Shown here: positions 181 to 21,037 of the stretch, in pieces | Layout of the letters: every line of letters begins with the position of its first letter | Numbering within the stretch: position 1 is the first letter of the stretch | NCBI GenBank assembly: GCA_005223085.1 | Contig: NJBP01000031.1 | Location: 1-24,529 of the forward strand | Length of the DNA stretch: 24,529 nucleotides | Direction of reading: 5' to 3' | Source: Candidatus Aerophobetes bacterium Ae_b3b | GTDB lineage: Bacteria; Aerophobota; Aerophobia; Aerophobales; AE-B3A | Made by a program: the position numbers and the translations under genes | The notes under the pieces: generated by a model | Database searches by the model: none | What the model was told of the DNA's origin: nothing | Seen by the model: only the letters and a program-made list of their open reading frames with translations

Positions 181-261
181 AGCTAAAGATGAGGCCAGAG
201 GGAGGTGAAAAGCGGGTAGGCCATTAGCTGGGAAATAAAGGAAGGTTTTCCAAAAAGAGAA
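181..261 (+). promoter_or_regulatory. Conserved structured leader motif, copy 1
   Basis: The leader of the first carbohydrate importer holds a foldable block. AGCTAA (181-186) pairs with TTAGCT (224-229), and inside it GGCC (193-196) pairs with GGCC (219-222). A second small hairpin follows (GGAA/TTCC, 240-251), then AAAAAGAGAA. A copy with the same order of parts lies at 20952-21037, before the second carbohydrate importer. The shared core reads TAGGCC(A/G)TTAGCTGGG. I do not recognise it as a known riboswitch class: the B12-box, TPP, SAM and glycine signatures are absent. It could be an unnamed cis-regulatory RNA or a protein-binding leader. Confidence 0.55.
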
Positions 262-335
262 GCGTGGAAAGATTAATTTCTCTTGCGGGAGCTTTCCATA
301 GAAATAATGAACTAGGTCTTAAAAAGGAGACTGCA

Positions 336-1667
336 ATGACAAGAAAAGTAAAAAAAGTAGGGTTTTTTGTCTTGATGATGTTTTTACTTGCTGGGTTTTC
401 TTCTATAGGTTGGGCTGACGTGGGAAGACTGTGGTACGGTCAACCAGACTGGGCAAAAGGAGTGGATAAGTTAACAGTATTTAACTTAGGGGCAGTAGAG
501 TACGATCCTGCTATTGAAGAACTCTGCATAGCGTTTGAAGAGATAACTGGTATCAAAATTGATATTTATCCAGCTCCCGCCGCAACATTACTGGAAGAAG
601 CTACTAGATCTCTCGCTTTAGGTGAAAGCACTTACGATGTTCTTGATTTTCCTCCTATTTGGTGTATGCCTGACTGGGTTGATGCAGGTTGGTTAGAACC
701 TTTAAATGATGTGATTCCACCAGGAATGATAGAACAGTGGCCTCCTGGTATGGTACCCTCACTGATGAAAGATGGAAAAATCTACTTTGTACGCCATCAG
801 GTAGAACCTAGGGTAGTATACTATAGGAAAGATTTGGTAGAACAAGCAGGCTATGGGAAGCCACCTAAGGATTGGAATGAGCTTGTGGATCTAGCTAAAA
901 AGCTGACCATAGATAAGGATGGAGATGGTAATATTGATCAATGGGGGTATGCCTACTCAGCTAGTCCTACAGGAGAAACAGTTCATGAGACCTTTGGTAG
1001 TTTTCTGTACGTTGCTGGTGGAGAGTTTTGGAACGAGGATGGCTCTCCTGCTTTTAATGGTCCAGAGGGACTGGCGGCTTTGACATTTATGAGTGATGTG
1101 GTTAACAAATATAAAATTGTACCTCCCGGTGTAATAACTTATAGAGAAGGGCCTCTGATGGATCTTTTAGGTTCCGGAGCAGTAGCTGTAGCTGAGGGAG
1201 ATTGTAGCTTAATGTTGCGCACTTTGTCCTCTGAGCCTTATGGAGAGAAAATTGCTGTAGCAGTACCTGCACCTTACAAGGCAGGCATGGTGTCTGGAAA
1301 AGACTTCTACTACTTCAGCAAAGGCATAAGTTACTGTGTTAACAAAAATTCGAAGCATTTAGAGGCAGCAAAACGATTAGCTGCTTGGGTAGGTGGTTAT
1401 GAAGCTAACTGGTTTGAAGGAGCGGTAGAGCTAAATTTTCCTTTCAATCGAGCGGTGTTTAGAAGTCCCTATTTAAAAAGTAGGATTCCCTTTTTTGAGG
1501 TACTAGCAAAGGTAGCTGAAGCGGGGAAAGTGGAGACACATGCAAATGTGCCTCTATTTGAGGACATTCTTGCCAAAGGAGTCAACTCAGCTATAAGTCA
1601 GGAAAGGACTCCCCAAGAAGCTTTGGATTGGATGGTAGCAGAAATGAGACGCCAGAAGGTCTTTTAA
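336..1667 (+). CDS. Carbohydrate ABC transporter, extracellular solute-binding protein (family 1)
   Basis: This is a periplasmic binding protein that should deliver a sugar or oligosaccharide to the two permeases downstream. The 443-residue form starts at ATG 336, with an AAGGAGA-like site 6 bases upstream. An in-frame ATG at 264 would put 24 residues ahead of the signal peptide, so it is rejected. Residues 1-27 form a signal peptide (basic MTRKVKK, hydrophobic core, cleavage after GWA) with no lipobox cysteine. An EF-hand-like loop with D193, D195, D197, N199 and D201 resembles the calcium loop seen in some family-1 binding proteins. The length is normal. The ligand cannot be read from sequence; the UroD-like genes downstream hint at an unusual carbohydrate. 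A terminator-like hairpin follows the stop codon. Confidence 0.88.
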   Translation: MTRKVKKVGFFVLMMFLLAGFSSIGWADVGRLWYGQPDWAKGVDKLTVFNLGAVEYDPAIEELCIAFEEITGIKIDIYPAPAATLLEEATRSLALGESTYDVLDFPPIWCMPDWVDAGWLEPLNDVIPPGMIEQWPPGMVPSLMKDGKIYFVRHQVEPRVVYYRKDLVEQAGYGKPPKDWNELVDLAKKLTIDKDGDGNIDQWGYAYSASPTGETVHETFGSFLYVAGGEFWNEDGSPAFNGPEGLAALTFMSDVVNKYKIVPPGVITYREGPLMDLLGSGAVAVAEGDCSLMLRTLSSEPYGEKIAVAVPAPYKAGMVSGKDFYYFSKGISYCVNKNSKHLEAAKRLAAWVGGYEANWFEGAVELNFPFNRAVFRSPYLKSRIPFFEVLAKVAEAGKVETHANVPLFEDILAKGVNSAISQERTPQEALDWMVAEMRRQKVF

Positions 1668-1680
1668 ACCAGAATTTGCT

Positions 1681-1714
1681 GGGGGATAAACCTTTGGGTT
1701 TATCCCCCTTTTTT
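1681..1714 (+). terminator. Intrinsic terminator or attenuator after the binding-protein gene
   Basis: A perfect 12-bp stem (1681-1692 with 1697-1708, beginning GGGGGATAAACC) has a 4-base loop and is followed directly by six T (1709-1714). It sits between the binding-protein stop codon and the first permease. It probably ends many transcripts, so that binding protein is made in excess over the membrane subunits. Part of the RNA must read through for the permeases to be expressed. Confidence 0.85.
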
Positions 1715-1762
1715 GATGAGGATGAGGACAAAAATTTCTCTATAGGGGTGAGACGATACCTG

Positions 1763-2656
1763 ATGAAGAAGATATTTACTAAAATCATTAACTTTGTTGA
1801 CAGTAAGTTTTGCTATATTACTACTTTTCCTGCTTTAATAGTTATATTACTGGTGGTTGGATTTCCAACTGTGTTTGGGATATATACTAGTTTTTTTGTA
1901 AGGAATATATTGAGACGGGCTATTTATTTTAATGGGATAGGAAATTATATCTCGTTAATTCAGGATCCTTCATTCTGGCGTTATTTAGCTCATACGGCAA
2001 TTTACACAGGAGGCTCTGTGGGAGTAGGATTTACTCTAGCTCTATGTCTGGCTTTGGCTTTAAACAGTGGGATACGGTTTCGATCATTTTTTATTGTAGC
2101 AATTCTGCTTCCCTGGATGACTCCTGCTGTTTCCGGTTGTATTATGTGGAGGTGGATGGTTCACGATATATATGGATTATTAAATGTAATTTTAGTTAAA
2201 TTGGGGCTATTAAATCAGAATTTTTTCTGGTTAGGTAACCCTTTTACAGCTATGTTCTTCCTTATATTAGTGGACGCATGGTACAGAATTCCTTTGTCAA
2301 CATTGATTTTATTCGCGGGCATGCAACGTATTCCTTCAGAACCGTATGATGCAGCTAAAGTAGATGGAGCAGGCAGGTGGTATTGTGTTAAACATATAAC
2401 TCTTCCGTTGATAAGACCAGAAATTCTTATTGTTTTAGTTATTCATAGTATGTTTAGCTTTCGTGAATTTGGCATACCTTTTCTTTTTACAGGGGGTGGG
2501 CCTGTAGATAATACCGAAACACTAGCCCTCTATATTTACAAGAATGCCAATCTTTTTTTACGTCAAGGTTACGCTGCCTCTTTAAGTGTAGTTATGTTTA
2601 TAATGATAACAATCTTTGTAGTTGGCTATTTTAAGGCTATTGGCAGAAAAGTATAA
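1763..2656 (+). CDS. Carbohydrate ABC transporter permease (MalF/UgpA-like)
   Basis: This is an inner-membrane subunit of the importer, expected to pair with the permease at 2676. The 297-residue form starts at ATG 1763, with an AGGGGTGA site near 1744-1751. Earlier in-frame starts would translate through the terminator hairpin and are rejected. The protein has about six hydrophobic segments and the cytoplasmic EAA loop (PYDAAKVDGAG, about residues 194-204, followed by LPLIRPE), which contacts the ATPase. The first part is typical of the MalF/UgpA class. The next gene starts 19 bases downstream. No ATPase gene of the MalK/UgpC class is present in the window. Confidence 0.88.
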   Translation: MKKIFTKIINFVDSKFCYITTFPALIVILLVVGFPTVFGIYTSFFVRNILRRAIYFNGIGNYISLIQDPSFWRYLAHTAIYTGGSVGVGFTLALCLALALNSGIRFRSFFIVAILLPWMTPAVSGCIMWRWMVHDIYGLLNVILVKLGLLNQNFFWLGNPFTAMFFLILVDAWYRIPLSTLILFAGMQRIPSEPYDAAKVDGAGRWYCVKHITLPLIRPEILIVLVIHSMFSFREFGIPFLFTGGGPVDNTETLALYIYKNANLFLRQGYAASLSVVMFIMITIFVVGYFKAIGRKV

Positions 2657-2675
2657 TGCAGGAAGAAAATAAATT

Positions 2676-3509
2676 ATGAAAAGAGCCAGAAAGATAAATT
2701 GGGCAAAAATTGGTATTTATGCTTTTTTAATATTATTTATAGTTTTTAGTTTGTTTCCGCTTTTTTGGATGGTGGATACGTCTCTTAAATCGGATGAGGA
2801 AGTTTTTAAAATGCCTCCTGTTTGGTTTCCAACTATCAAGTTAGAAAACTACCGGATCTTTCTTCTACAAAGACCCTTCCCAAAATATACATTTAATTCC
2901 TTGATAGTATCTTTATCTGTGGCCGTTCTTTGTATTGGGTTGGGCACCCCAGCAGCTTATGGCTTCTCCCGATTTAGGTTTAGGGGTAATAGGTTAATGT
3001 TCGGAGCAATTCTAGCTAGCCGTTTAGTTCCTCCTATATCTTTTATAGTTCCTTTTACCATAATATTTAGCTGGTTCAGAATGGTGGATACTTTACCAGT
3101 ATTGATAATATCTTACATTTTCTTTAATTTACCCTTTGTTATTTGGATTTTATCAGGATTCTTTGAATCTATTCCCCAAGAACTAGATGATGCAGCCAGG
3201 ATTGATGGGTGTGGTAATATCACTGCTTTCTGGAAAGTTATTTTGCCTATCACTAAACCTGGAGTAATTGCTGGGACAATATTGACTTTTCTTATGTGCT
3301 GGAATGAATTTATGTTTGCTTTAGTTTTAACTAGATTAAATGCTAAGACTCTCCCTATAGGCTTGTATGATTTTTTCGCTGATGGTTTTGTGCGCTGGAA
3401 CTGGCTGGCCGCAGCTACAATATATACTTTGATTCCTGCTGTAATATTTGTTCTCTTTTTTCAAAAGCATTTAATAAAAGGGATACTTGCTGGGGCAGTA
3501 AAGGGATAA
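2676..3509 (+). CDS. Carbohydrate ABC transporter permease (MalG/UgpE-like)
   Basis: This is the second membrane subunit of the same importer, 277 residues, usual for the MalG class. It opens with a short basic cytoplasmic tail (MKRARKINWAK), then a first membrane segment ending in the family pattern FPLFWMVDTSLKS. The EAA loop is clear (QELDDAARIDGCG, residues 168-180, followed by LPITKPG). The start is ATG 2676 with an AGGAAG site upstream. It lies in one operon with the preceding permease, and the UroD-like gene follows after 15 bases, so transport and that enzyme are probably co-expressed. Confidence 0.88.
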   Translation: MKRARKINWAKIGIYAFLILFIVFSLFPLFWMVDTSLKSDEEVFKMPPVWFPTIKLENYRIFLLQRPFPKYTFNSLIVSLSVAVLCIGLGTPAAYGFSRFRFRGNRLMFGAILASRLVPPISFIVPFTIIFSWFRMVDTLPVLIISYIFFNLPFVIWILSGFFESIPQELDDAARIDGCGNITAFWKVILPITKPGVIAGTILTFLMCWNEFMFALVLTRLNAKTLPIGLYDFFADGFVRWNWLAAATIYTLIPAVIFVLFFQKHLIKGILAGAVKG

Positions 3510-3524
3510 AATAAAAGTGATGCT

Positions 3525-4583
3525 ATGACTTCCCGAGAAAGAGTTCTTACCGCTTTAAATCTAAAGAAACCGGACCGAGTGCCGTTTTTAGACGCTTACA
3601 TAGATCCTAATATACAAAGGGCTCTATTGCGGACAGAGAGATTAAGTGTACCCACTATTTCAGAGACTACGCCTGGATGGGAATCCTGGGGATCTTTCGA
3701 AAGACAAGATAATAAATTTAAGCTCCGCTTAGCCTACTCCATTTCTCCGGAGTTTGTGGAAAAATTTGGGTTGGATGGATTTGGTATAGATTTTCTACCC
3801 CCCTTATTTGTTAAGGTGAAATACGGAAAGCAAGGACGAGAATTCATAGCCGATGGATTATTAACTTCAGATAAAGCTTTAAAACTAGTGACTTTACCTG
3901 ATCCTGCCGATGAATCCTTGTACGAGCCAGCAAGAAAAATATTAGAAAGATATGGCAATGAGTACGCTGTTCATGGTAGAATTCGTTTAGGAGTATCACC
4001 CGCTCTATTAAGTATGGGCATAGAAGGTTTTTCGTATGTCCTTCAGGACAATCCAGCCTTAATTGAGAAGGTGTTGGATATTTATACGGACTGGAGTGCT
4101 GAGTTAGTTAAACATCTTAGCAAATTGGGATTTGCTTTTTTATGGGCTTTTGATGACATAGCTTATAACAGTGGACCTATGTTCTCTCCCTCTGTATTCA
4201 GAGAAATATTCTTACCTCAAATGAAGAAAGTAGCTAATGGTATAAGAATCCCTTGGGTTTACCACAGCGATGGGAATCTTACGCCTTTACTTGACGATTT
4301 GCTTACTTTAGAAATGAATGGCCTTCACCCTATTCAGCCAGATGTTATGGACATTGTAGAGTTAAAAAAGGATTATGGAAATAAGATTTGTTTATTGGGA
4401 AATATAGATGTAGGTCTTCTTGCTAAGGGGATACCTGAGGAAGTTGAGAAAGAAGTTAAGGAAAAAATAGAAACCCTTGCTGCCGATGGGGGATATATTC
4501 TTACTAGTGGTAATAGTATCCCCTCTTATTGTAAGCCGGAAAATGTGATAGCTGTGATTAGGGCAGTGCATAAATATGGTTAA
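3525..4583 (+). CDS. Uroporphyrinogen decarboxylase (URO-D) superfamily protein
   Basis: This 352-residue TIM-barrel protein has the URO-D/MtaA superfamily layout: N-terminal RERVLTALNLKKPDRVP, a metal-region motif at H247-S-D249-G-N251, LHP (267-269), LLGNID (290-295) and the C-terminal SGNSI (328-332). Family members include true UroD and zinc-dependent corrinoid methyltransferases (MtaA, MtbA, CmuA). It is not a typical MtaA: the zinc motif His-X-Cys reads H-S-D, and the usual C-terminal GCE cysteine is replaced by N330. It is also unlikely to be heme-pathway UroD, since it lies 15 bases behind a sugar permease with no heme genes nearby. Likely role: an uncharacterised enzyme in the catabolism of whatever the importer brings in. 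The start ATG has only a weak ribosome site. Confidence 0.8.
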   Translation: MTSRERVLTALNLKKPDRVPFLDAYIDPNIQRALLRTERLSVPTISETTPGWESWGSFERQDNKFKLRLAYSISPEFVEKFGLDGFGIDFLPPLFVKVKYGKQGREFIADGLLTSDKALKLVTLPDPADESLYEPARKILERYGNEYAVHGRIRLGVSPALLSMGIEGFSYVLQDNPALIEKVLDIYTDWSAELVKHLSKLGFAFLWAFDDIAYNSGPMFSPSVFREIFLPQMKKVANGIRIPWVYHSDGNLTPLLDDLLTLEMNGLHPIQPDVMDIVELKKDYGNKICLLGNIDVGLLAKGIPEEVEKEVKEKIETLAADGGYILTSGNSIPSYCKPENVIAVIRAVHKYG

Positions 4584-4947
4584 CATTATTGCAAGCATTT
4601 AAGAAGGTGTATTTTCGCAGAAGACAGTACCCTAAAAATTTCTGAGAGTTCTAATGGAACAAGGGGTCTCAATGGATGGTTCGTATGGGACGGATAAAAG
4701 ATGCACTGGAGGTTACGAAAAAAAATAAAGACAAAAATATAAAAATAATGTTAGAACCCTAATATCGAACTTATTACAAGGTAGTGTCGGATTACATCAA
4801 GCCTTCATATAATCTTAAACCAGTGATGCATTAGTTACAAGGCAGGTGTAGCTACCCATTCTGGCGAAAGTACTAAATTTATGTTTCTCACAGTCGATTT
4901 CCTGTGGCGGAAATTCGGGTAAAATTTGATGATAAAGAGAAGCTAAC
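4584..4947 (+). pseudogene. Decayed gene remnant between two URO-D family genes
   Basis: No intact gene is present, but protein-like segments in shifting plus-strand frames look like a degraded coding region. From 4655 one frame reads WNKGSQWMVRMGRIKDALEV, continues to KIMLEP, hits TAA at 4760-4762, then resumes as YRTYYKVVSDYIKPSYNLKP to TAG at 4832-4834. A second frame then carries SYKAGVATHSGESTKFMF and FLWRKFG to TAA at 4920-4922. An overlapping frame upstream gives NGWFVWDG just before the shift. The amino-acid texture is that of a folded cytoplasmic enzyme. I cannot name the family. The alternative is non-coding sequence with chance open stretches. Confidence 0.4.
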
Positions 4948-6012
4948 ATGACACCTTTACAAAGATTCAAAATAGCAGCTAAGCTAGGGATACCCGACCA
5001 GGTACCGGTAATGCCTTTTGCCACAGGACATTACATAGCCTGGTTTGCCGGAATCGATGAGAAAGATTACTGGTGGGATCCGGTTAAGAAATTCAAAGCT
5101 CAGTTGAAGCTTCAGGATAGATTTCCAGATGTTATGTTTTATCCAGGGATTTGGCCTGACTTTAGTATTGCAGTCGAAGTATCATCCCTAGGATGCAGAA
5201 TAGAATGGCCACAGCACGCCAGTCCCCAGGTTCGCGAACATATAACCGATATAGATACTCTGGAACCACCCGATCCCTGGAAAGATGGCTTAATGCCCAA
5301 GGCTTTGGAAACCTATCAGTATATGTTAGAAAATATGTCTTTTCGCTATAAAGAACAATATGAGTATCTTGATGGCTGGGCAATATCTTTAGGTCCCATA
5401 GACATGGTAGGTCTTTGTATCGGTTATGATGCTCTTTTTCGTAATTTTTACCTACATCCTGAAAAGATACATAAACTAGTGGAGATAACTACAGAAACAG
5501 TTATCAGGTACATAAGGGCTCAGGAGAAAATTGGAGGAAGATTAAAGAGATATGAGGTAGCAGACGATGCCATTGGTCTCATCTCACCCCAGCATTTTAG
5601 GGAATTTGCCTTACCCTATCTAAAAAAAATATTTGCTACTTTTTCCTATGCTATTGGAATCTTTCATTGTGATGCTAATACTTCTCATTTGTTGGATGAT
5701 ATTCCCAATATAGGCATGGATGTATTCAATTTTGGCCCTGAGGTGAATCTCCAGGAGATCAAAAGCAAAATAGGGAAAAAGATCTGTCTTTTAGGTAATG
5801 TACCTACTATAGATATAGATGATATCCTTCCCTCGTCTACTTTGTTAAGAGGAACACCCGAAGAAGTGGATGAGGTTTGTCGATACCAAGTAAAAGTAGG
5901 CAAACCAAATGGAGGATATATCTTAACTTCCGGAAGCGGTATGGCTCGGGGAACACCGGAGCAGAATATAGAGACTATGATAAGAGCAGCAGGAAAATAT
6001 GGGAAATATTGA
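4948..6012 (+). CDS. Uroporphyrinogen decarboxylase (URO-D) superfamily protein
   Basis: This 354-residue URO-D-like TIM-barrel protein belongs to a different subgroup from its neighbour at 3525. It opens with TPLQRFKIAAKLGIPDQVPV and has a metal-region motif H240-C-D242-A-N244, then LLGNV (281-285). The C-terminal family region is SGSGMARGTPEQN (328-340), the form that aligns with the P-x-EN motif of the superfamily. A cysteine sits inside the H-C-D motif, one position off the H-x-C zinc ligand of MtaA-type enzymes. The 364-base gap before it is filled by a decayed gene. The ribosome site before ATG 4948 is weak. Its reaction is unknown; corrinoid- or metal-dependent methyl transfer or a decarboxylation are both conceivable. 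Confidence 0.78.
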   Translation: MTPLQRFKIAAKLGIPDQVPVMPFATGHYIAWFAGIDEKDYWWDPVKKFKAQLKLQDRFPDVMFYPGIWPDFSIAVEVSSLGCRIEWPQHASPQVREHITDIDTLEPPDPWKDGLMPKALETYQYMLENMSFRYKEQYEYLDGWAISLGPIDMVGLCIGYDALFRNFYLHPEKIHKLVEITTETVIRYIRAQEKIGGRLKRYEVADDAIGLISPQHFREFALPYLKKIFATFSYAIGIFHCDANTSHLLDDIPNIGMDVFNFGPEVNLQEIKSKIGKKICLLGNVPTIDIDDILPSSTLLRGTPEEVDEVCRYQVKVGKPNGGYILTSGSGMARGTPEQNIETMIRAAGKYGKY

Positions 6013-6070
6013 ATGTATGATAAGCTCGAGATTTTAGTTAGATAGAATTTAGGGAAAGTCCAGGATTTTT

Positions 6071-8009: not shown

Positions 8010-8042
8010 ATAAAATCTTGTTTTCCCTTTAATCCTTTAATT

Positions 8043-8102
8043 GGTAGCCGCGGGCTTTAGCCTGAGGCTTATCTTTTACGCAACCTAAAGGTTGCGGCTA
8101 CC
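8043..8102. mobile_element. Palindromic REP/MITE-like element between dppC and dppD
   Basis: Outer arms GGTAGCCGC (8043-8051) and GCGGCTACC (8094-8102) are perfect 9-base complements. Inside are two further palindromes: GGCT-TT-AGCC near 8053-8062, and CGCAACC/GGTTGCG (8079-8085 with 8090-8096, loop TAAA). The second overlaps the outer arm, so the two folds compete. Near-identical pyrimidine-rich flanks (TTTCCCTTTAATCCTTTAA on the left, TTTCCCTCTTAATCCTTAA on the right) look like a decayed target duplication or a tandem slip. It encodes no protein. It resembles small non-autonomous palindromic repeats that spread in intergenic gaps. A role as RNA stabiliser or attenuator within the dpp mRNA is possible. 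Confidence 0.6.
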
Positions 8103-8132
8103 GGTTTCTTTTTCCCTCTTAATCCTTAATCC

Positions 8133-9014: not shown

Positions 9015-9020
9015 TTTGTC

Positions 9021-10025: not shown

Positions 10026-10051
10026 TTGCTAGTTCCTATTTTAGAAAGCAT

Positions 10052-11903: not shown

Positions 11904-11977
11904 CTCTCGCTTCACTCGAGCAAGTCGAGCCTGCTCCCCTCTTTTTTCTGATATTTGGTCTACCGAGGTTTACTTGA

Positions 11978-12020: not shown

Positions 12021-12058
12021 AGCAAACCTTAACCCTATTTGCTTAAGAGGTGCTTTTT

Positions 12059-12086
12059 AATTTATCATCCTCAGTGATTTTGTCAA
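12059..12086 (-). promoter_or_regulatory. Predicted sigma-70 promoter of the peptide importer operon
   Basis: On the minus strand a perfect -35 TTGACA (12086-12081) is followed after 16 bases by TAAATT (12064-12059), 4 of 6 matches to TATAAT. It lies just after the hslU stop codon (12098). A start near 12052 would give a leader of roughly 285 bases before ATG 11767. Confidence 0.55.
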
Positions 12087-12097
12087 GAACGCTATCA

Positions 12098-13462
12098 TCA
12101 CAGGATGTAGCGGGAAAGATCTTCACTCTCCACGATATCTTTGAGCCTTTTTTTGACGTAGCTAGAGGCGATGGTAAGGGACTTTCGCCTCATTTTGGAA
12201 GCATTGAAGCTGATATCTTCCAGAAGCTTTTCCATAACGGTGTAAAGCCTCCTGGCCCCGATGTCCTCGCTTCGCTCATTCACCAGAGATGCCAGATGAG
12301 CGATTTCCTTAATTGCGCTTTCCTCGAAGGTTAATTGTATCCCTTCGGTTTTCATCAAAGCTTGATACTGCTTTATTAAAGCAGTATCAGGTTCGGTTAG
12401 GATGCGCTCGAAGTCCTTCTGGGTAAGTCTATTCAATTCGACCCGAATGGGAAATCTTCCCTGAAGTTCGGGGATCAAGTCGGAAGGAGAAGCAGCATGA
12501 AAGGCCCCGGCAGCGATAAAGAGAATATGATCGCTTTTGATGGCCCCATAACGGGTAGCTACAGTAGTTCCCTCAACAATAGGCAGAAGATCTCTCTGCA
12601 CTCCTTCCCGGGAGACGTCTATTTTATCCACTCCTCCTCCCCCGGCAACCTTATCTATCTCATCAATGAATATTATACCGGAGTTTTCCGCACGACCGAT
12701 TGCTTCCTCCATGACTTTGTCTTTGTCTATCAGCTTTTGGGACTCCTCCTCCAGGATAATCTGGCGAGCTTCCTTTATGGGGGCCTTTCGGTCTCGAGGA
12801 CGTTTTGGTAACATATCACCCAGCAGATCTTGAAAGTTCATCCCCATCTGTTCTACTCCGGCACTACTGAATATCTCTATCATAGGAGTGAACTTATCGG
12901 TTGCCTTGATCTCAATTAATCTATCTTCCAGTTCCTTATTCTTCAGTTTCTCTCTTAGTCTTTTTCTGGTGTTCTTTGCTTTTTTAATCCGCTCATCCTC
13001 CTCAAGCTCTCCTCCTTTGTGGGAAATCGAGGTACTTTGGGGAAGAGGAAGGAGAATATTCAGAAGTCTTTCTTCAGTCAATCTCTTCGCCTTCTCCCTT
13101 ACTTTTTTCATCATCTCCATTTTCACTGTGTGTACCGCCACATTGGTAAGATCCCTTACCATGGACTCTACATCCCTTCCCACATAACCTACTTCGGTGT
13201 ATTTACTTGCCTCCACCTTTATGAAAGGTGCCTGGGCTAGTTGAGCTAACCTTCTGGCAATCTCTGTCTTTCCTATGCCCGTCGGGCCTATCATGATGAT
13301 ATTCTTGGGAGCTACTTCGTCTCTAAGTTTAGGAGGAAGCTTTTGCCGCCGCCATCTATTTCGCAGGGCAATTGCCACCGCCCGCTTAGCATCATCCTGC
13401 CCTATAATGTATTTGCCCAGCTCCTTTACTATGATAGGAGGGGTAAGCCATTTTTCCCTCAT
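12098..13462 (-). CDS. hslU: ATP-dependent protease ATPase subunit HslU (ClpY)
   Basis: This AAA+ unfoldase feeds proteins into the HslV peptidase. It has 454 residues, slightly above the usual 440-470 midpoint. Walker A is GPTGIGKT (59-66), the pore loop is GYVGRD (92-97), Walker B is IIFIDEID (263-270), the arginine-finger region is QGRFPIR (334-340), and sensor 2 is GARRL (402-406). The intermediate I-domain lies at about 110-240 and is lysine/glutamate-rich. The C-terminal tail ends LSRYIL, the segment that docks into HslV and activates it. ATG 13462 has a clear GAGGAG site. It is the last gene of the topA-xerC-hslV-hslU block, 68 bases after hslV. Confidence 0.97.
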
Positions 13463-13530
13463 TTTTTATCTCCTCAATGGTTTTAAAAGTGTTAATCGCT
13501 AAGAAAGCGTTTTTGATCTTCTTTTTTTTA

Positions 13531-14058
13531 TCATAATTCCTCAACACTAATCTGATTATTAGTATAAATACAGATAGAGGCGGCTATAGTCATAGCTGTC
13601 TCCACGATTTTTCTGGGAGGATAATCTGTGTGGTCAGCCAAGGCTTGAGCTGCTGCCTGGGCAAAGCCGGCTCCTGAGCCGATGGCTACTACTCTGTCAT
13701 CAGGTTCGATCACATCTCCGTTACCTGAGATAATAAAGGATTTTTCCTTATCAGCCACGATCATTAGAGCCTCCAGTCTGCGCAATATCTTATCCTGCCG
13801 CCAGTCTTTTACCAGCTCTAATGAAGCCCGGGCAAGATTTCCCTGATACTGTTCAATCTTCTTTTCGAACCTCTCAAAGAGGGTAAGGGCATCAGCAATG
13901 GCTCCAGCAAAGCCAGCTAAAACGCGTCCTTTATAAAGTCTCCTTATCTTCTGGGCCTTGTGTTTCATAACTATGTTCTCGAAAGTAACCTGCCCATCAC
14001 CGGCAATAGCCACTTTGTCTTTATCTCTCACTGCCAAGATAGTAGTTGAGCGAATCAT
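13531..14058 (-). CDS. hslV: ATP-dependent protease peptidase subunit HslV (ClpQ)
   Basis: This proteasome-related threonine protease works with HslU. It has 175 residues, normal length. The nucleophile should be T5: MIRS is a four-residue propeptide and the mature chain begins TTILAV. Other active-site positions are in place: D21 in AGDGQ, K37 and S128 in IGSGAG. AAAGGAGGT lies just before ATG 14058, and the xerC stop is only 11 bases upstream, so the two are tightly coupled. The order xerC-hslV-hslU is a well-known conserved cluster, for example in Firmicutes. Confidence 0.97.
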
Positions 14059-14069
14059 CTAACCTCCTT

Positions 14070-14957
14070 TTATGCCCTGGGGTGCGTGGCTTGATAAATC
14101 TTCTTGAGTCTCCTGGTGTTTAAATGGGTATAGACCTGAGTAGTGGAGAGCCGTTCGTGACCTAAAAGTTCCTGGATACTGCGTATATCTGCTCCCCGGT
14201 TCAAAAGATGGGTAGCAAAGGAATGACGCAGTATGTGTGGACCGGCTGCCTTTTGAATGTTGGCTAATTCCAGGTATTGATTCATTTTTTTTCGCAAAGA
14301 CCTGTCGGAGAGTCTTCCTCCGAATCTATTGATAAAAAGGGCCTTTACTCCAGGTTTTACTTCCTCTTTTCTCATGGGTAAATATGTGATTAGTGCTTTA
14401 ACGGCATAACTTCCCATCGGTATTATCCTTTCTTTGGAGCCTTTACCTCTAACCTTCACCGTCTCTGACCCAAAGTCAAGATCCTCAACCTCAAGGTTTA
14501 CTAACTCAGCCGCTCTCATTCCAGTGGCATATAAAAGTTCCAGAATTGCTCTATCCCGAAGGCGAATAAAATCCTCTCCTTTTGCTGCATTGAGAAGTCT
14601 TTGCACCTCTTCCTCCTCCAGATAAGCCGGGATTTTTCTTCCCTGTTTTGGGCCTCGCATACCAGACAGAGGAAAAGATCCTAGGTGTCCCTTCAAATAG
14701 AGAAAATGAAAGAAGCTTCGTAAAGAAGCAACTCTTCGGGCGAGAGTAGATTTTCTCCTTTCTTTTTTTTGGAGTAGGCCCAGATACTCTCGTACCTCAG
14801 GATAGCCTACTTCTTTCAAATCTTCCTTCTGGAAATGGAGAAATTTTAAAAAATCCTTCACATCACTGGTATAGCTCTTAACCGTGGACGAGGAAAGATT
14901 TTTTTCCTCTTCCAGGAAACGATGAAATCTATCCAGCCAATTTATTTCTAGCTCCAT
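14070..14957 (-). CDS. xerC: Tyrosine recombinase XerC
   Basis: This site-specific recombinase resolves chromosome dimers at dif. It has 295 residues from ATG 14957. An upstream in-frame extension to 15092 would overlap the end of topA by about 100 bases and adds no conserved sequence, so it is rejected. The SAM-like N-terminal core-binding domain covers about 1-90. All catalytic residues are visible: R148 (ATGMRAAEL), K172 (GKGSKER), H241 and R244 (HILRHSF), H267 (LLGHERLS) and nucleophile Y276 (TTQVYTHLN). No strong ribosome site precedes ATG 14957, so coupling to topA 29 bases upstream is likely. No mobile-element context, so this is the chromosomal enzyme rather than a phage integrase. 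Confidence 0.94.
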   Translation of the reverse strand: MELEINWLDRFHRFLEEEKNLSSSTVKSYTSDVKDFLKFLHFQKEDLKEVGYPEVREYLGLLQKKERRKSTLARRVASLRSFFHFLYLKGHLGSFPLSGMRGPKQGRKIPAYLEEEEVQRLLNAAKGEDFIRLRDRAILELLYATGMRAAELVNLEVEDLDFGSETVKVRGKGSKERIIPMGSYAVKALITYLPMRKEEVKPGVKALFINRFGGRLSDRSLRKKMNQYLELANIQKAAGPHILRHSFATHLLNRGADIRSIQELLGHERLSTTQVYTHLNTRRLKKIYQATHPRA

Positions 14958-14986
14958 AGAAATTTGCCACAAGGGGACTGACTGCT

Positions 14987-17110
14987 TTAGCTGCCAGTAG
15001 TTGACCTTCTTTTCATTATTTTGAAAGGGACTCTGCCCAGTTTGAGTTCTTCGACCAGAAACTCTTCTATTCTTTTTCCACACTCTGGACACTTTAAGCC
15101 ATTCTTAACCTTTACCAGATAAGAATTCCCGCAATGAGGACAATTTTCTACCACCGGTTCGGTTTTCAAAACAAACCGGCATTGAGGAAACCTCGAGCAG
15201 CCATAGAAAATACTACCCTTTTTGGATGATCTCTCGATGATCTCTCCCTCACAGCCCGGGGAAGGACATCTAACTCCGGTCTTTTGAGTTACTTTCCTGG
15301 TGTTCTTACAGCGAGGATAATTAGAACAAGCAAGAAATTCTCCGTAGCGGCCGAATTTAAGAACCATTTTCCCTCCGCATTTCTCACATTTAAGAGATGA
15401 GGCTTTCCATCCCTCTTTTTTGATATCCTTCATCTTTTGTTCAGCCGCCTCGAGGTCTTTCTTAAAATGATGATAAAAATCGCCTACTAAATCAGCCCAG
15501 GGTCTTTCCCCCTGTTCCACTGCATCCAGACCTTCCTCCATCTGGGCGGTGAAATGAGGGTCAAGGAGAGTGGAAAAACTATTCACCAGAAGGTCATTCA
15601 CCACTCTTGCCAGGGGTGTAGGAACGAACCAACCCCTAGTAGATTTCACATAACCCCTTTTCTTAATGGTGAAGATAATGGGAGCATAAGTGCTCGGCCT
15701 TCCGATTCCCTTTTCTTCCAGGGCTTTAATCAGACTAGCTTCGGTGTATCGGGGAAGTGCTTTGGTAAATTGCTGTTTTGAGCTAAGCTCTTCTAACTTT
15801 AACTTTTCATTTTCTTTGACCACTGGCAGACTCTCATCTTTTTCAGCTTTCTCTTTATAAATTAGAAGATAGCCGGGAAATCTAATTTTTCGACTCTCGG
15901 CTTTAAAAAGATATACTCCTCCCTGAATGTCTACTTTAACTGTGTCTATAACCGCCCTTTCCATTTGAGAGGCGATGAATTTTCTCCAGATGAGCTGGTA
16001 GAGTTTATAATGAGGATTTGATAAGTACTTTTTTACTCTCTCCGGATCTCGCTTGATCCTGGTTGGTCGTATAGCTTCGTGAGCATCCTGACTCGATTTT
16101 CTGTTCCTGTAATAAGGGATTTTTGAAGGTAGAAATTCTTCTCCTAATTTCTTCTTTATATACTCTCGTGCCTCCTTCTGTGCTTCCTTGGCCACCCGGA
16201 CAGAATCTGTCCGCATATAGGTAATAAGACCTACTCTTCCCTCAGATCCAATCTCCTGGCCCTCGTAAAGATCCTGGGCTAGCTTCATGGTGCGGGCTGC
16301 CGAAAACCTCAGGTTATAAGCGGCTGCCTGCTGTAAGGTGCTGGTGGTAAAGGGAGGCTGGGGAGATTTCTTCTTCTCTTCTCTTCTTACCCTTATAATC
16401 TGGTAGCTCTGCTCTTTTATTTTTTCCGCAATTTCCTTTACCTGAGCTTCGCTACTTATTTTTACCTTTTGGCTATCAATCAGGGAAAGTTTCGCCTCCA
16501 GGCAAGCCTTTTTGAGAGATAACCCAAATCTGGCCTTGACTATCCAGTACTCCTCTGGTCTAAATTTTTCTATCTCATTTTCTCGATCACAGATAAGCCG
16601 AACCGCTACTGACTGGACCCTTCCGGCAGAGAGTCCTCTCTTTACCTTCTCCCAGAGAAGGGGCGAGAGCTTATATCCCACTAATCTATCTAATATTCTT
16701 CTTCCCTGCTGAGCGTTCACTTTATTAAGGTCGACCTGGCCAGGTCTTTTAATAGCCTCACGGATAGCTTCTCTAGTGACCTGATTGAAAACTATTCTTG
16801 CCTTGTCCGGATGAGCTAGCTCCTGGGAAAGATGCCAGGAAATCGCCTCTCCCTCTCTATCTATATCCGTAGCCAGATAGACCTTTTCTATCTGGCGGCT
16901 TAAATCCTTTAATTTCTTGACTACTTTCCTTTTTCCAGGGATTATGCGGTAGGCCGGTTTAAACCCATTTTCTATATCTATCCCCAAATTTTTCTTGGGT
17001 AGATCTTTTATATGCCCATAGCAGGACTCCACCCGAAAATCCTTACCCAGGAACTTATTTATGGTTTTAGCCTTGGCTGGCGATTCTACAATGACTAAAT
17101 TTTTAGGCAT
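14987..17110 (-). CDS. topA: DNA topoisomerase I (type IA)
   Basis: This enzyme relaxes negative supercoils. It has 707 residues. The Toprim domain carries VESPAK (8-13) and the acidic motif TDIDREGE (81-88). The catalytic tyrosine is Y298 in ITYMRTDS. EKGIGRPSTYAPII (466-479) is the usual domain III/IV motif. Three C-terminal zinc ribbons follow: C575/C578/C595/C601, C615/C620/C638/C644 and C657/C660/C674/C677. The tail after 690 is basic. It heads the minus-strand block with xerC, hslV and hslU. The trmFO gene often found between topA and xerC in Firmicutes is absent. Confidence 0.97.
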   Translation of the reverse strand: MPKNLVIVESPAKAKTINKFLGKDFRVESCYGHIKDLPKKNLGIDIENGFKPAYRIIPGKRKVVKKLKDLSRQIEKVYLATDIDREGEAISWHLSQELAHPDKARIVFNQVTREAIREAIKRPGQVDLNKVNAQQGRRILDRLVGYKLSPLLWEKVKRGLSAGRVQSVAVRLICDRENEIEKFRPEEYWIVKARFGLSLKKACLEAKLSLIDSQKVKISSEAQVKEIAEKIKEQSYQIIRVRREEKKKSPQPPFTTSTLQQAAAYNLRFSAARTMKLAQDLYEGQEIGSEGRVGLITYMRTDSVRVAKEAQKEAREYIKKKLGEEFLPSKIPYYRNRKSSQDAHEAIRPTRIKRDPERVKKYLSNPHYKLYQLIWRKFIASQMERAVIDTVKVDIQGGVYLFKAESRKIRFPGYLLIYKEKAEKDESLPVVKENEKLKLEELSSKQQFTKALPRYTEASLIKALEEKGIGRPSTYAPIIFTIKKRGYVKSTRGWFVPTPLARVVNDLLVNSFSTLLDPHFTAQMEEGLDAVEQGERPWADLVGDFYHHFKKDLEAAEQKMKDIKKEGWKASSLKCEKCGGKMVLKFGRYGEFLACSNYPRCKNTRKVTQKTGVRCPSPGCEGEIIERSSKKGSIFYGCSRFPQCRFVLKTEPVVENCPHCGNSYLVKVKNGLKCPECGKRIEEFLVEELKLGRVPFKIMKRRSTTGS

Positions 17111-17172
17111 CTTTATTCATGTTTTTAATTAGTTTTTTCTATTAGTAACTTGTGGTTAGCTTGCTCAAGAGT

Positions 17173-17200
17173 ACCATAGGACAGAAAAAAATTTTGTCAA
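17173..17200 (-). promoter_or_regulatory. Predicted sigma-70 promoter of topA
   Basis: On the minus strand TTGACA (17200-17195) is followed after 16 bases by TATGGT (17178-17173), which matches the -10 consensus at 4 of 6 positions. The start would lie near 17166, about 55 bases before ATG 17110. It probably drives topA-xerC-hslV-hslU. Confidence 0.6.
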
Positions 17201-17328
17201 GGGTTTGACTGGCCGCCTGATGCCTGTTCATAAATCAAGGAAATGAAAGACCTGTCTGAAAGCCATAAAGAGTCGGCTAAAATATTAAAAACGTCATAAT
17301 TATCGATTTGGTGACAATTTTTATAAAC

Positions 17329-17357
17329 TTGACAGGATAATTGACTTATATTAATTA
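17329..17357 (+). promoter_or_regulatory. Possible promoter of the one-carbon enzyme genes
   Basis: A perfect -35 TTGACA (17329-17334) is followed by a very AT-rich stretch. TAATTA begins 17 bases later at 17352 and TATTAA begins after 14 bases, and neither is a strong -10. A strong ribosome site (AAAGGAGTG) and ATG 17404 come about 50 bases downstream. The -35 and its position are convincing, the -10 is not. Confidence 0.4.
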
Positions 17358-17403
17358 GTTATAGAACTAAAAATGATTACATTCGATAAAGAAAGGAGTG
17401 AAA

Positions 17404-17445
17404 ATGGAGACAAAGACTAAGGCACGATGTGCTCGAGGTACGTGA
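17404..17445 (+). CDS. Very short ORF behind a strong ribosome site (leader or truncated gene start)
   Basis: ATG 17404 stands 5-6 bases after AAAGGAGTG and opens a 13-codon frame (METKTKARCARGT, then TGA 17443-17445). It is too short for an ordinary protein. It may be the 5' stub of a lost gene, because the damaged outer-membrane-protein fragment begins immediately after it. It could also be a leader peptide. Nothing in its sequence points to a function. Confidence 0.3.
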   Translation: METKTKARCARGT

Positions 17446-17456
17446 CCGTGACTCTC

Positions 17457-17572
17457 TCACTTGAAAAAGAAACGAAAACCCAGGGCGGTTTCCAAAAAGA
17501 AATCGAGGGGTACTGCATAAAAAGGTATTCCAAGCCCGCAATGGTCCTTATTCCAATCTCTGTTACTTCAGA
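17457..17572 (-). pseudogene. Broken 3' fragment of an outer-membrane beta-barrel protein gene
   Basis: On the minus strand this segment matches the C-terminal coding end of the gene at 24348-24529. The stop codon region and the coding stretch for GFRFFFK are nearly identical at the DNA level, as is the stretch for IVGLEYLF. Compared with that copy it lacks about 48 bases in the middle and has lost one G in the TTTGATGCA stretch, which shifts the frame. It has no 5' part: the fragment ends where the methyltransferase gene begins. It is therefore a dead duplicate. Confidence 0.8.
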
Positions 17573-17590
17573 GAGCTGGAGAAAAAAGCT

Positions 17591-18391
17591 ATGCTAATTA
17601 TTGGGGAGAAAATCAATACGGTAAGAAAAAATATAGCCTTGGCTGTGGAGAAAAGGGATGTTGAAACCATCCAAAAAGAAGCAATCAATCAAGTTAAAGC
17701 TGGAGTAGATGTGCTGGATGTAAACGTAGGAAGTCCACTCAAAGAGGCGGAGAATATGAGATGGGCGATAAAGGTTATCCAAGAAGTGGTGAATATCCCC
17801 TTATGCATAGACAGCCCTAGCCCAGAAACTATTAAGGCGGGATTCCAGGTATGCAAGGATAAAAGAAGAACCTGGGCCAATTCTATAACTCTTCAGAAGA
17901 AAAGGATGGAGGGTGTACTCCCCCTGGTCAAAAAGTATAACTGTCCCTTAATTGCGCTTTGTATGGATGATAAAGGAATTCCTTCTAGTGCCGAGAAAAG
18001 AGTAGAGGTAGCCAGAAGATTAATAAAGGTGGTGAGTGATTTTGGTATCTTCTTAGATAACCTTTACATAGACTGTTTAATTGAGCCCATCAGTGTAGGG
18101 CAGGGGAAAGCGCAGCAAACTTTAGCTACCATCAGGATGATGAAGAATACCTTCCCTCAGATAAAGACAGTAGTATGTTTAAGTGGAGTCTCTTTTGGTT
18201 TACCTGGGAGAGGATTAATTAACCGTACCTTTTTACCCCTTCTGATAGAAGCAGGAGTGGATGCTATTTTTCTGGATCCTTTGGATGAGGCTATTATGGC
18301 CACTTTTAAGGCGGCTAATGCCCTACTGAATAAGGATGAGAGTTGCCTGAAATATATCAGTGCCCATCGAGAGGGAAAACTCAAGGTTTAA
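17591..18391 (+). CDS. Methyltetrahydrofolate:corrinoid methyltransferase-like pterin-binding protein (AcsE/MtrH type)
   Basis: This 266-residue TIM-barrel protein has the dihydropteroate-synthase-like fold of AcsE, MtvC-like MeTr and the MetH folate domain. These move methyl groups between tetrahydrofolate and a cobalamin protein in the cytoplasm. Visible motifs are MLIIGEKIN (1-9), LDVNVG (42-47), CID74S, ANS98 and YID161. The INRTFL block (210-215) is also present. One key position is unusual: the LSNVS motif that holds the catalytic asparagine of Moorella MeTr (Asn199) reads LSGVS here (G199). GGAG lies 9 bases before ATG 17591. The next URO-D gene follows after 13 bases, so the two are co-transcribed. 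No corrinoid protein gene is nearby. DHPS is unlikely given the AcsE-like ends. Confidence 0.82.
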   Translation: MLIIGEKINTVRKNIALAVEKRDVETIQKEAINQVKAGVDVLDVNVGSPLKEAENMRWAIKVIQEVVNIPLCIDSPSPETIKAGFQVCKDKRRTWANSITLQKKRMEGVLPLVKKYNCPLIALCMDDKGIPSSAEKRVEVARRLIKVVSDFGIFLDNLYIDCLIEPISVGQGKAQQTLATIRMMKNTFPQIKTVVCLSGVSFGLPGRGLINRTFLPLLIEAGVDAIFLDPLDEAIMATFKAANALLNKDESCLKYISAHREGKLKV

Positions 18392-18404
18392 GAAGAGAGA
18401 AAAA

Positions 18405-19655
18405 ATGACCAAAAAAGAAAGAGTAAAGATGGCCTTGTCTCATAAGGAACCGGATAGTGTACCCCTTTTTGAACTTACTGTAGCTAATCCTGTTCTGGAG
18501 AGTGTGTTAGGCAAAAAAATCACAGGATTTGGTACTGGAGAGGCCAAAATGGCTGGTATAAGAGCGGCCATGGAGGGAAGAGAGGCAAGGAGGGCCATTA
18601 TTAGAGAAAATGTAGAGGGGATGCTGGAGATGTACAGTAAAGTAGGTTTTGATATGTTCTGGTTCAGACCTACTGAGTATCTTGCTCCTGTGGAGATGGG
18701 ACTTCCCGATAACATTACTGCTAATTACATCTTTGATGTTACTATAAAGGAGATTGAGAAAAACACTTTTTGTATCGAGAGCAAAGAACATGGTTTTTGG
18801 TCTATAGAAAAATACGAAGAAAAAGGTGATACCTGTGTTACCGTTAATGATTGTATAAAAGAAGGAGGAATTGAAGAGCTGCGCAGATATGTAGAATATC
18901 TGGAGAGGGCAAAGATTACTCCTCTTCATCAATGCCTCCAGGATGGGCTGGAGTCAATCAGAATAGCTGTGGAGAGAGAAAAAGAAAAAGAGGATGGAAT
19001 GTTTGTGCTGGGAGCAGCAGATATTGCCTGCCCCACTTTTCTTCCCTATTTTCCGCTATTTCTCCAAGCCATGGTTGATGAACCAAAATTAGTGGAAAGG
19101 TATATGGAGGCAACCACTGAAGGAGTAATACCTTTACTGAGAGCTCAACTTGAGATGGGTGTGGATGGGATTCTGGGAGCTGTGGACTGGTGTTATGGAG
19201 GAGGCCCTCTATTTTCTCCGCAAATGTTTAAAAGATTTATGGTCCCTCATCTAAAGAGAATCGCTGATGAGTGTCACTGCTATGGGGTGCCTTATATAAA
19301 ACACCTCGATGGAAATACTACCGTCTTGTTGAATATGCTGGTCTACGAGGTGGGAATGGATGGCCTTCACAGTATTGAACCTCCGGCAGGTATGGATATT
19401 AGCTGGATCAAGAAAAAATACGGGGATAAGATTACTATTCTGGGGAATATAGATTGTGGGCATCTCTTAACTTTCGGAAGCAAGGAAAAAATAATAGAGG
19501 GGGTAAAGAGAATCATAGAAGTAGCCTCTCCCGGAGGAGGTCACGTTTTCAGCTCCAGCAATTCTATCCACAGTGGAGTATCTCCGGATACTTTCTGGAC
19601 AATGATAAAGGCCGTAAGAGAGTTTGGAAAGTATCCAATATCTATGTCTGACTAG
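18405..19655 (+). CDS. Uroporphyrinogen decarboxylase (URO-D) superfamily protein
   Basis: This is a 416-residue URO-D-like protein, longer than its two relatives in the window because of extra sequence at about 35-200. The start is ATG 18405, after AAGAGAG. The longer in-frame option at 18360 overlaps the methyltransferase gene and adds a non-conserved tail. Motifs: KKERVKMALSHKEPDSVP (3-20), H300-L-D302-G-N304, LHSIEP (321-326), ILGNID (345-350) and SSSNSIHSGVSP (383-394). As in the protein at 3525, H-x-D replaces the zinc-site H-x-C and N386 stands where MtaA-type enzymes have cysteine. Its place between MeTr-like and MetF-like genes suggests a role in one-carbon transfer or in removing a group from a carbohydrate, but the chemistry cannot be stated. 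Confidence 0.8.
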   Translation: MTKKERVKMALSHKEPDSVPLFELTVANPVLESVLGKKITGFGTGEAKMAGIRAAMEGREARRAIIRENVEGMLEMYSKVGFDMFWFRPTEYLAPVEMGLPDNITANYIFDVTIKEIEKNTFCIESKEHGFWSIEKYEEKGDTCVTVNDCIKEGGIEELRRYVEYLERAKITPLHQCLQDGLESIRIAVEREKEKEDGMFVLGAADIACPTFLPYFPLFLQAMVDEPKLVERYMEATTEGVIPLLRAQLEMGVDGILGAVDWCYGGGPLFSPQMFKRFMVPHLKRIADECHCYGVPYIKHLDGNTTVLLNMLVYEVGMDGLHSIEPPAGMDISWIKKKYGDKITILGNIDCGHLLTFGSKEKIIEGVKRIIEVASPGGGHVFSSSNSIHSGVSPDTFWTMIKAVREFGKYPISMSD

Positions 19656-19671
19656 ATCCTTTTGATTATGA

Positions 19672-19926
19672 AGTAAGTATGGAAAAACTTTTTACTGTGA
19701 TGGACGGGTTCTAATTGGCCAGGATTTTCTCAATCCTTTTGGCAAATTTGTACCCAAGTTTGTTAAGCAGTACGTGGACTTATCCCCAATAATTGAAGAA
19801 GCCTTCAAGCAATATAAGAAGGATGTGGAAAAAGGGAAGTTCCCGGATGGCTCTCGTAGTTTTCCAACAGAAGATGAAGAATTCAGCAAATTAGTGGGTA
19901 TTTTAGCAAAGAGGCATAAAAATTGA
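19672..19926 (+). pseudogene. 3'-terminal remnant of a PanB-like (ketopantoate hydroxymethyltransferase) gene
   Basis: This frame has no usable start codon yet stays open for 84 codons up to TGA 19924-19926. It encodes the C-terminal third of a PanB-family protein: FYCDGRVLIGQDF, then FGKFVPKFVKQYVDLSP, then KKDVEKGKFPDGSRSF. The family pattern PKFVKRYA...EYxxDVxxGxFP is plain. A complete PanB has roughly 270 residues, so about two thirds are missing. The preceding URO-D gene ends 16 bases upstream, where a deletion could have joined them. The remnant's stop overlaps the TTG start of the MetF-like gene (TTGA), an operon-type junction left from the intact gene. PanB uses methylene-tetrahydrofolate, which fits the one-carbon neighbourhood. 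Confidence 0.8.
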
Positions 19927-20789
19927 GCTTTTCAGATGTCTTAAAGAGTGGAAAATTTTTGATAACTACGGATGTTATTCCTCCCAAGGGGATAAATATC
20001 TCAAAGATGTTAAGCAGAATTGACTCTCTTGTGGGTAAAGTGGATGCAGTGAATGTGGTTGATCTTCCAAGTTCGGTAATGAGAGTAAGCCCTTTGCCCA
20101 TAGCTCTTCTCTTAAAAGAGCGACGGTTAGAGCCTATTCTTCAAATGACGTGCAGGGATCGTAACAGGTTAGCTCTACAGGCAGATCTTTTGGGAGGCTA
20201 CATAATGGGTATAACGAATATACTTGCACTTACTGGGGATGAGATACATCTAAGCGATGATCCTGAAGCAAAACCCGTCTTTGACCTTGATTCAATTGAA
20301 CTTTTAAAAGCTGCACGAAAACTGGAGAAAGGATACGATTTAGGGGGTAATCCCCTGAGAGGATTACCAAAATTCTGTGTAGGAGCAGTCGTTGATCCCG
20401 GAGCAAATCCTATCGAGCCTGAAATTGAGAAGATGCAGCGAAAAGTAGAAGCAGGAGCAGAATTTTTTCAGACTCAGCCCATATTTGATGTTACGGTGCT
20501 TGTTGAATTTTTGGAAAAAGCTGGCGAAGTAGAGGTTCCTATACTGGGGGGTGTACTTCTTTTGAAATCTGCAAAAATGGCTCGATTCATGAATGAAAAA
20601 GTGCCGGGAGTGAGAATACCTGAACATTTTATTCATCAGATGGAAAAGACACAAGATCCAGTACAAACGGCTATTAAAATTACCTCCAGTATAATTAATC
20701 AGATAAAAGGCACTTGTAGAGGAGTTCATATTATGACACTTAATTGGGAAGACAAAGTTCCTGCGGTATTAAAAGCAGCTAGTTTTTAA
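19923..20789 (+). CDS. Methylenetetrahydrofolate reductase family protein (MetF-like)
   Basis: This cytoplasmic flavoenzyme interconverts 5,10-methylene- and 5-methyl-tetrahydrofolate. It has 288 residues, usual for the bacterial TIM-barrel form. Motifs: FLITTDVIPPKG (12-23), QMTCRDRNR (74-82), LALTGD (101-106) and AGAEFFQTQPIFD (177-189). GVHIMTLN (267-274) closes the barrel. The catalytic acid of E. coli MetF, Glu28, corresponds to D17 here. The start is TTG 19923: without it the first barrel strand would be lost, and an AGAGG lies about 7 bases upstream. It overlaps the PanB remnant's stop codon. Together with the MeTr-like gene it suggests handling of methyl-tetrahydrofolate. A housekeeping role in methionine synthesis is possible, though no met genes are near. 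Confidence 0.87.
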   Translation: MSFSDVLKSGKFLITTDVIPPKGINISKMLSRIDSLVGKVDAVNVVDLPSSVMRVSPLPIALLLKERRLEPILQMTCRDRNRLALQADLLGGYIMGITNILALTGDEIHLSDDPEAKPVFDLDSIELLKAARKLEKGYDLGGNPLRGLPKFCVGAVVDPGANPIEPEIEKMQRKVEAGAEFFQTQPIFDVTVLVEFLEKAGEVEVPILGGVLLLKSAKMARFMNEKVPGVRIPEHFIHQMEKTQDPVQTAIKITSSIINQIKGTCRGVHIMTLNWEDKVPAVLKAASF

Positions 20790-20811
20790 TCTATCTGATT
20801 TTCTCTATTCA

Positions 20812-20844
20812 GGGGATAAAGCTATTCTAGAAAGAGCCCCTTTT
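20812..20844 (+). terminator. Weak candidate terminator after the MetF-like gene
   Basis: GGGG (20812-20815) can pair with CCCC (20837-20840), with an inner GCT/AGC match, followed by TTTT. The stem is short and interrupted. It separates the one-carbon genes from the next promoter at 20892. Confidence 0.35.
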
Positions 20845-20891
20845 CCCTTTCTCAAGAGAACAAGAGAGGTAATTTTCTCAAAAAGCGCCTC

Positions 20892-20919
20892 TTGACAGAA
20901 AAGGAAATTCGCTAATAAT
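20892..20919 (+). promoter_or_regulatory. Predicted strong sigma-70 promoter of the second carbohydrate importer
   Basis: A perfect -35 TTGACA (20892-20897) is followed, after a 16-base spacer, by AATAAT (20914-20919), 5 of 6 matches to the -10 consensus. A start near 20926 gives a leader of about 250 bases before ATG 21175, covering the conserved structured motif at 20952-21037. Confidence 0.65.
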
Positions 20920-20951
20920 TAGGAGTGACGTTAGATCTTTGACAAAAGAAA

Positions 20952-21037
20952 AACTAAAAACAAGGCTAGGAGGAGGCGAGAGATAAGAAAATAAATAGGC
21001 CGTTAGCTGGGTCTTCGGAAGGCTTCTGAAAAAGAGA
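20952..21037 (+). promoter_or_regulatory. Conserved structured leader motif, copy 2
   Basis: This copy has the same order of parts as copy 1 at 181-261: AACTAA (20952-20957) opposite TTAGCT (21003-21008), with one mismatch, and GGCT (20964-20967) opposite GGCC (20998-21001), using one G-U pair. A purine-rich GAGG block lies in the loop. GGG then leads into a second hairpin (TTCGGAAG 21014-21021 with CTTCTGAA 21023-21030), then AAAAAGAGAA. The second hairpin has a different sequence but the same place as in copy 1. It lies in the leader downstream of a good promoter, which favours an RNA rather than a DNA element. Confidence 0.55.

Follow-up and report, generated by a model that had tools for sequence, protein, structure and literature searches.

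The window, meaning the whole stretch of DNA analysed (24,529 nt; contig NJBP01000031.1 of Candidatus Aerophobetes bacterium Ae_b3b), contains two importer operons, each with a gene for an extracellular solute-binding protein downstream of a leader (Table 1). The original prediction had placed leaders with the same ordered parts at both sites, and these were found there together with the outer and inner pairings described for each. A 16-nt core, TAGGCCRTTAGCTGGG, had exactly two mismatch-free sites in the window, compared with 0.32 sites at up to three mismatches in shuffled sequence. Copy 1 is a near-perfect member of the family described below and copy 2 a degenerate one, in whose P3 the improved covariance model skipped 31 positions.

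Table 1. Features of the two leader copies in the window. R2 denotes the improved covariance model; E-values come from a shortened calibration.
Feature	Position	Strand	Details and basis
Leader RNA copy 1 (P1, P2, P3, tail)	177..318	+	R2 match, 128.4 bits, E 1.3e-25
Copy 1 P1 5′ strand AGCTAA	181..186	+	Pairs with 224-229 (TTAGCT); sequence and P1 covariation in 102 copies
Copy 1 P2 5′ strand GGCC	193..196	+	Pairs with 219-222 (GGCC); sequence and covariation
Copy 1 P2 loop, purine-rich, SD-like GGGAGGTGA, no start codon after it	197..208	+	
Copy 1 P2 3′ strand GGCC	219..222	+	Sequence and covariation
Copy 1 P1 3′ strand TTAGCT	224..229	+	Sequence and covariation
Copy 1 P3, long hairpin	240..297	+	MFE fold and covariation of helices 3-5
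Copy 1 P3 parts	outer 240-250/287-297; inner 255-262/277-284; loop 263-276	+	
Copy 1 conserved tail TGAACTAGGTC	308..318	+	
SBP_bac_1 extracellular solute-binding protein gene, 443 aa	336..1667	+	Heads the operon after copy 1
Promoter-like TTGACA-16-AATAAT 5′ of copy 2	20892..20919	+	
Copy 2 conserved 5′ extension GTTAGATCTTT	20930..20940	+	
Leader RNA copy 2	20948..21064	+	R2 match, 50.4 bits, E 4.9e-9
Copy 2 P1 5′ strand AACTAA	20952..20957	+	Pairs with 21003-21008; one A.C mismatch
Copy 2 P2 5′ strand GGCT	20964..20967	+	Pairs with 20998-21001
Copy 2 SD-like P2 loop AGGAGGAGGCGA	20968..20979	+	Sequence
Copy 2 degenerate P3, CTGAAAA 21026-21032 / TTTTCAG 21039-21045	21026..21045	+	
SBP_bac_1 extracellular solute-binding protein gene, 420 aa, after copy 2	21175..22437	+	

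The element proved larger than first seen: besides P1 and P2, whose loop is purine-rich, it has the long hairpin P3 and a tail. The leader limits drawn originally were too short; in copy 1, P3 and the conserved tail extend beyond them, and AAAAAGAGAA, previously placed after the second hairpin, is in copy 1 the 5′ arm of the inner stem of that hairpin. The good promoter announced 5′ of copy 2 was present, and none was found for copy 1. Between the copy 2 element and its gene start at 21175, positions 21093-21117 contain another perfect SD (AAGGAGGTGATG) and, after it, an ORF of two codons, ATG ACC TGA. Genes of the URO-D type, pterin-binding genes and MTHFR genes (3525-6012 and 17591-20789) adjoin both importer operons, suggesting that the operons may import methylated compounds and not plain sugars. 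A weak R2 match (18 bits, E 0.036) at 19797-19885 lies just 5′ of the methylenetetrahydrofolate reductase gene at 19923-20789, where a degenerate copy would be expected. Elsewhere in the window, one cluster (12098-17110) encodes an HslU-like AAA ATPase, an HslV-like proteasome-type protease, an XerC-like integrase-family recombinase and topoisomerase I.

Beyond the window, the core recurred in at least eight leaders of the same genome (2.04 Mb in 86 contigs, 88.6% complete), and a covariance model built on five copies (R1) found 28 copies there at E ≤ 0.01. Aerophobota is an uncultivated phylum known mainly from marine sediments; R1 detected copies in all 17 of its genomes examined, spanning 12 genera, with up to 29 per genome. 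We then searched 386 genomes with R2, built on 102 copies, under strict filters and with the eight best candidates kept per genome, settings that weak relatives could escape. Of the 17 phylum members, 16 gave matches, as did one of the 369 genomes sampled outside, each non-Aerophobota phylum being thinly covered; this sole outside match (L179, 38 bits) was rejected, as it appears to lie inside a coding region. The exact core pattern, run against 84,980 genomes, returned 32 loci, with the element only in three Candidatus Aerophobetes records and one MAG contig. As the latter genome, labelled Pseudomonadota, held only two copies, the contig is probably misbinned.

The original prediction had recognised no known riboswitch in the leader, in agreement with Rfam 15, where even under permissive filters nothing that overlapped the element came close to a gathering score. 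The idea that the leaders are a divergent member of an Rfam family is thereby left very improbable. Nor did literature searches turn up any account of a motif like this in Aerophobota. Structure and distribution establish the leaders as members of a new family of structured 5′ leader RNAs spread across Aerophobota, and we infer that they regulate the genes downstream.

Members are about 140 nt long, with a further 15-20 nt 5′ extension that is often present and conserved. The 5′ part of the consensus reads AGCUAA - AAAUAR - GGCC - RGRRGGAGGUGA(G)AAARNUARRUA - GGCC - R - UUAGCU - NGG, and the 3′ part GGAAAGCUUUCC-AAAGAGAAG-UGUUGAAARAUUAAU-UUCUCUUUURGGAGCUUUCC-ACAGAAAAAUGAACYAUGUC. Aligned leaders of the own genome share the long P3, its inner 5′ arm holding AAAAAGAGAA, and then the tail NUGAACYAUGUC. 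Some copies have a longer P2 loop, and in others most of P3 is missing. P1 occurs as GCUAA/UUAGC, GCUAG/CUAGC, GCUGG/CCAGC and GAUAG/CUAUC.

Across 102 aligned copies, 91.7% of cells were paired and 23 of 24 pairs showed double-sided changes, indicating that base pairs are kept through compensatory changes. Double-change cells numbered 212, compared with 74 ± 9 after shuffling (none of 500 shuffles reached 212) and 63 in the best slid control. Fitting the alignment to the R1 structure biases it towards that structure, a bias that the shuffles and slides control in large part; copies from one genome are, moreover, not independent. In the same line, seven structure pairs reached or exceeded the column-permutation maximum in APC-corrected covariation, and the non-structure pairs above the permutation null were local pairs within the P3 loop and tail. 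Unpaired nucleotides were strongly conserved in the A-rich P1/P2 bulge, the P2 loop and the P3 loop, as was the tail. A pseudoknot between P3 loop and tail was rejected for want of covariation support, and a reading of the tail as a short upstream ORF was rejected by eye, since stops occur and the third codon varies freely. A hairpin in the 5′ extension, P0, was only weakly more stable than shuffles.

The copies lie on the same strand as the genes that they precede, just 5′ of them: a gene start with an SD was found within 120 nt downstream in 101 of 132 copies, compared with none of 52 at the other end on the opposite strand. The spacing from tail to start codon had a median of about 24 nt (108 copies with a spacing of 5-80). 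This placement bears on the notion of a dispersed repeat or mobile element that has landed before genes by chance, for which the many copies per genome would speak. Such an element would be expected to show high identity without structure-keeping changes, and random orientation; we found compensatory base changes, exclusively sense orientation beside start codons, and presence in all 12 genera examined. Flanks were also less alike (0.475 and 0.484) than the element itself (0.64), and we consider a chance repeat hardly credible. The proposal that the leader is conserved beyond simple operon duplication held up likewise: copies lie far outside the two operons, and every helix shows compensatory changes. 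The proteins encoded downstream of the two window leaders are, as claimed, only distant relatives (26% identity over 136 aa).

The covariance-model search advocated in the original prediction yielded many further copies 5′ of binding-protein genes. Among 130 downstream proteins, 53 were SBP_bac_1 and 23 SBP_bac_5, with Peripla_BP, DctP, TctC and other families adding further binding proteins; a rough pattern for signal-peptide-like N-terminal stretches fitted 115 of 131 downstream proteins. The remaining genes encode GH36-, GH65- and GH2-like glycosidases, a sulfatase, a mandelate-racemase-like protein, aldehyde ferredoxin oxidoreductase, dehydrogenases, an OTC-like enzyme and, once, groES (genome G015). 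Given these unrelated binding-protein families, catabolic enzymes and groES, the leader is not specific to sugars: of the suggested new cis-regulatory RNA for sugar importers, the conserved structured leader stands and the restriction to sugar importers falls. As most of the genes serve uptake and catabolism, the set points to regulation and not to plain high expression, and a regulatory input is likely. Conversely, 41 SBP_bac_1 places were found in the own genome, and at 14 of the 30 examined R2 gave a clear element (E below 1e-5), with several more weak matches at the expected position. At one locus (L075), tandem copies (1285-1433 and 1501-1644, complement) precede a single family 5 binding-protein gene.

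Strong sigma-70 promoters, mostly ending 20-35 nt before P1, accompanied 17% of copies, compared with 3% on the reverse strand, and the motif GUUAGAUCUUU occurred 15-21 nt 5′ of P1 in 57 of 131 copies, compared with 8 of 131 in a control stretch. The sequence just 5′ of P1 thus suggests that, in copies with such a promoter or motif, the element would form the 5′ end of the transcript.

The P2 loop carries an SD-like RRGGAGGUGA that fits the 16S tail of the phylum, GGATCACCTCCTTTC in seven genomes. A perfect Watson-Crick complement of at least 8 nt to this tail was present in 98 of 139 loops, compared with about 2% of composition-matched shuffles. In 61 short-loop copies, loop positions opposite a 16S C were G in 286 cases and A in 16, and those opposite a 16S U were A in 133 and G in 48; this bias by opposite base is the pattern of anti-SD pairing, unlike that of a generic purine run. 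No ATG, GTG or TTG followed the motif in 75 of the 94 loops carrying it. An intrinsic terminator within the leader was rejected, with terminator-like structure in 1 of 114 copies, and so was masking of the gene's ribosome site, as this site paired with its own leader no more strongly than with those of other genes (difference 0.23 ± 0.27 kcal).

These results weigh against a riboswitch that responds to a single global signal of nutrient or energy status, such as a nucleotide second messenger or a central metabolite, in which P1/P2 would bind the ligand and set all operons. Among global riboswitches, the c-di-GMP and ykkC-type classes occur in many copies per genome and resemble the leader in placing one conserved RNA before many unrelated operons of one physiological programme. 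The coherent downstream regulon, the strongly conserved unpaired nucleotides in bulge and loops, and the L075 tandem, an arrangement known for some riboswitches, all fit this idea. The leader differs from these classes in that it matched no Rfam family, showed neither of the two expression platforms sought (terminator or masked ribosome site; others are possible) and has no ligand assigned; moreover, its P2 loop varies as anti-SD pairing predicts, and no pseudoknot signal was seen. We therefore regard a riboswitch as unlikely, while giving it real weight.

A phylum-specific RNA-binding protein acting as a global post-transcriptional regulator of carbon uptake, in the manner of Hfq/Crc or CsrA, is in our judgement rather improbable, though a serious rival. 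Leaders bound by CsrA or Hfq/Crc carry purine-rich (GGA or A-rich) sites on catabolic genes, and the GGA-rich hairpin loop resembles such protein-bound sites; many targets per genome, and HPr over the cut-off in 8 of 17 genomes as part of known sugar-control systems, would suit a protein as well. However, the conserved site of the Aerophobota leader is a long SD match set within a large RNA of two domains, and among the 17 genomes CsrA was found in none and Hfq in one, barely at the cut-off, so that a new protein must be assumed. These genomes appear to be MAGs and are mostly incomplete, which makes the absence of a protein family weak evidence.

Considering the 16S complementarity together with the lack of start codon, terminator and masking, we tentatively favour, with confidence somewhat below even, the reading that the leaders form a new RNA family whose P2 loop docks 30S subunits, as a STAB-SD-like or standby site, and which tunes uptake genes. 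Docking at the P2 loop would place a 30S subunit close to the mRNA 5′ end; the docked subunit might stabilise the message, keep a ribosome on standby for the true ribosome-binding site, which lies about 100 nt further 3′, or do both. P3 and the tail could position or insulate the docking module, and expression of uptake and catabolic genes would be raised or tuned as one regulon. Tandem copies before one gene suit docking and a switch alike. Against docking, conservation of the bulge, P3 loop and tail goes unexplained by 30S binding alone, and the purine-rich loop could be conserved for another partner; the restriction of the gene set to uptake and catabolism, with its hint of regulation, also weighs against it.

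Among the closest known systems is STAB-SD of the cry3A 5′ UTR of Bacillus thuringiensis, which blocks the 5′-3′ exonuclease RNase J (Agaisse & Lereclus 1996, as described in PMC4113751). It is described as an SD-like sequence and not as a conserved folded RNA; lying close to the mRNA 5′ end, some 100-130 nt ahead of the start codon, it directs no initiation but is able to pair with 16S rRNA. The leader shares the non-initiating, 16S-complementary SD near the 5′ end, a position deduced for the promoter-bearing subset, whereas its SD occupies a loop of a covarying fold that also has P3 and a tail and that recurs dozens of times per genome. Exonuclease-blocking stabilisation by an SD also lacks its usual enzyme here: canonical RNase J was not found over the cut-off in the 17 incomplete genomes, nor canonical RNase E/G in a search of phylum genomes, and we therefore do not file the leader as STAB-SD. 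Ribosomal-protein leader RNAs (for example in PMC7247131) are likewise structured leaders at the level of phyla; they precede ribosomal protein genes and serve autoregulation, whereas importer genes follow the Aerophobota leader, and the main text of PMC7247131 mentions neither ABC transporters nor Aerophobetes.

If 30S docking is correct, the 16S anti-SD could itself be the ligand, with docking of free 30S subunits coupling much of the uptake programme of the phylum to ribosome availability; we rate this step as speculative and doubtful. A ribosome-sensing regulon would then take the place of global control by proteins. More broadly, the family would mark uptake and catabolism as a programme throughout an uncultivated phylum, in about 30 copies per genome at most, and offer a handle on the control of feeding in bacteria lacking CsrA and, on present findings, Hfq. 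With its non-initiating SD set in a conserved fold, the leader allows a direct test of whether ribosomes dock on an mRNA leader.

Several individual loci showed unusual arrangements. In G015, a copy with a good promoter (L118, 251-397) lies 5′ of groES-groEL, outside the importer and catabolic theme. At L107, two divergent copies about 1 kb apart (1301-1446, minus strand; 2471-2617, plus strand) each lead into their own binding-protein gene. A leader-like remnant lies 3′ of the main copy at L089. Finally, the copy at L047 (contig C65 of G000) has inverted, repeat-like sequences after it in place of a clear gene; an insertion may have separated it from its gene.
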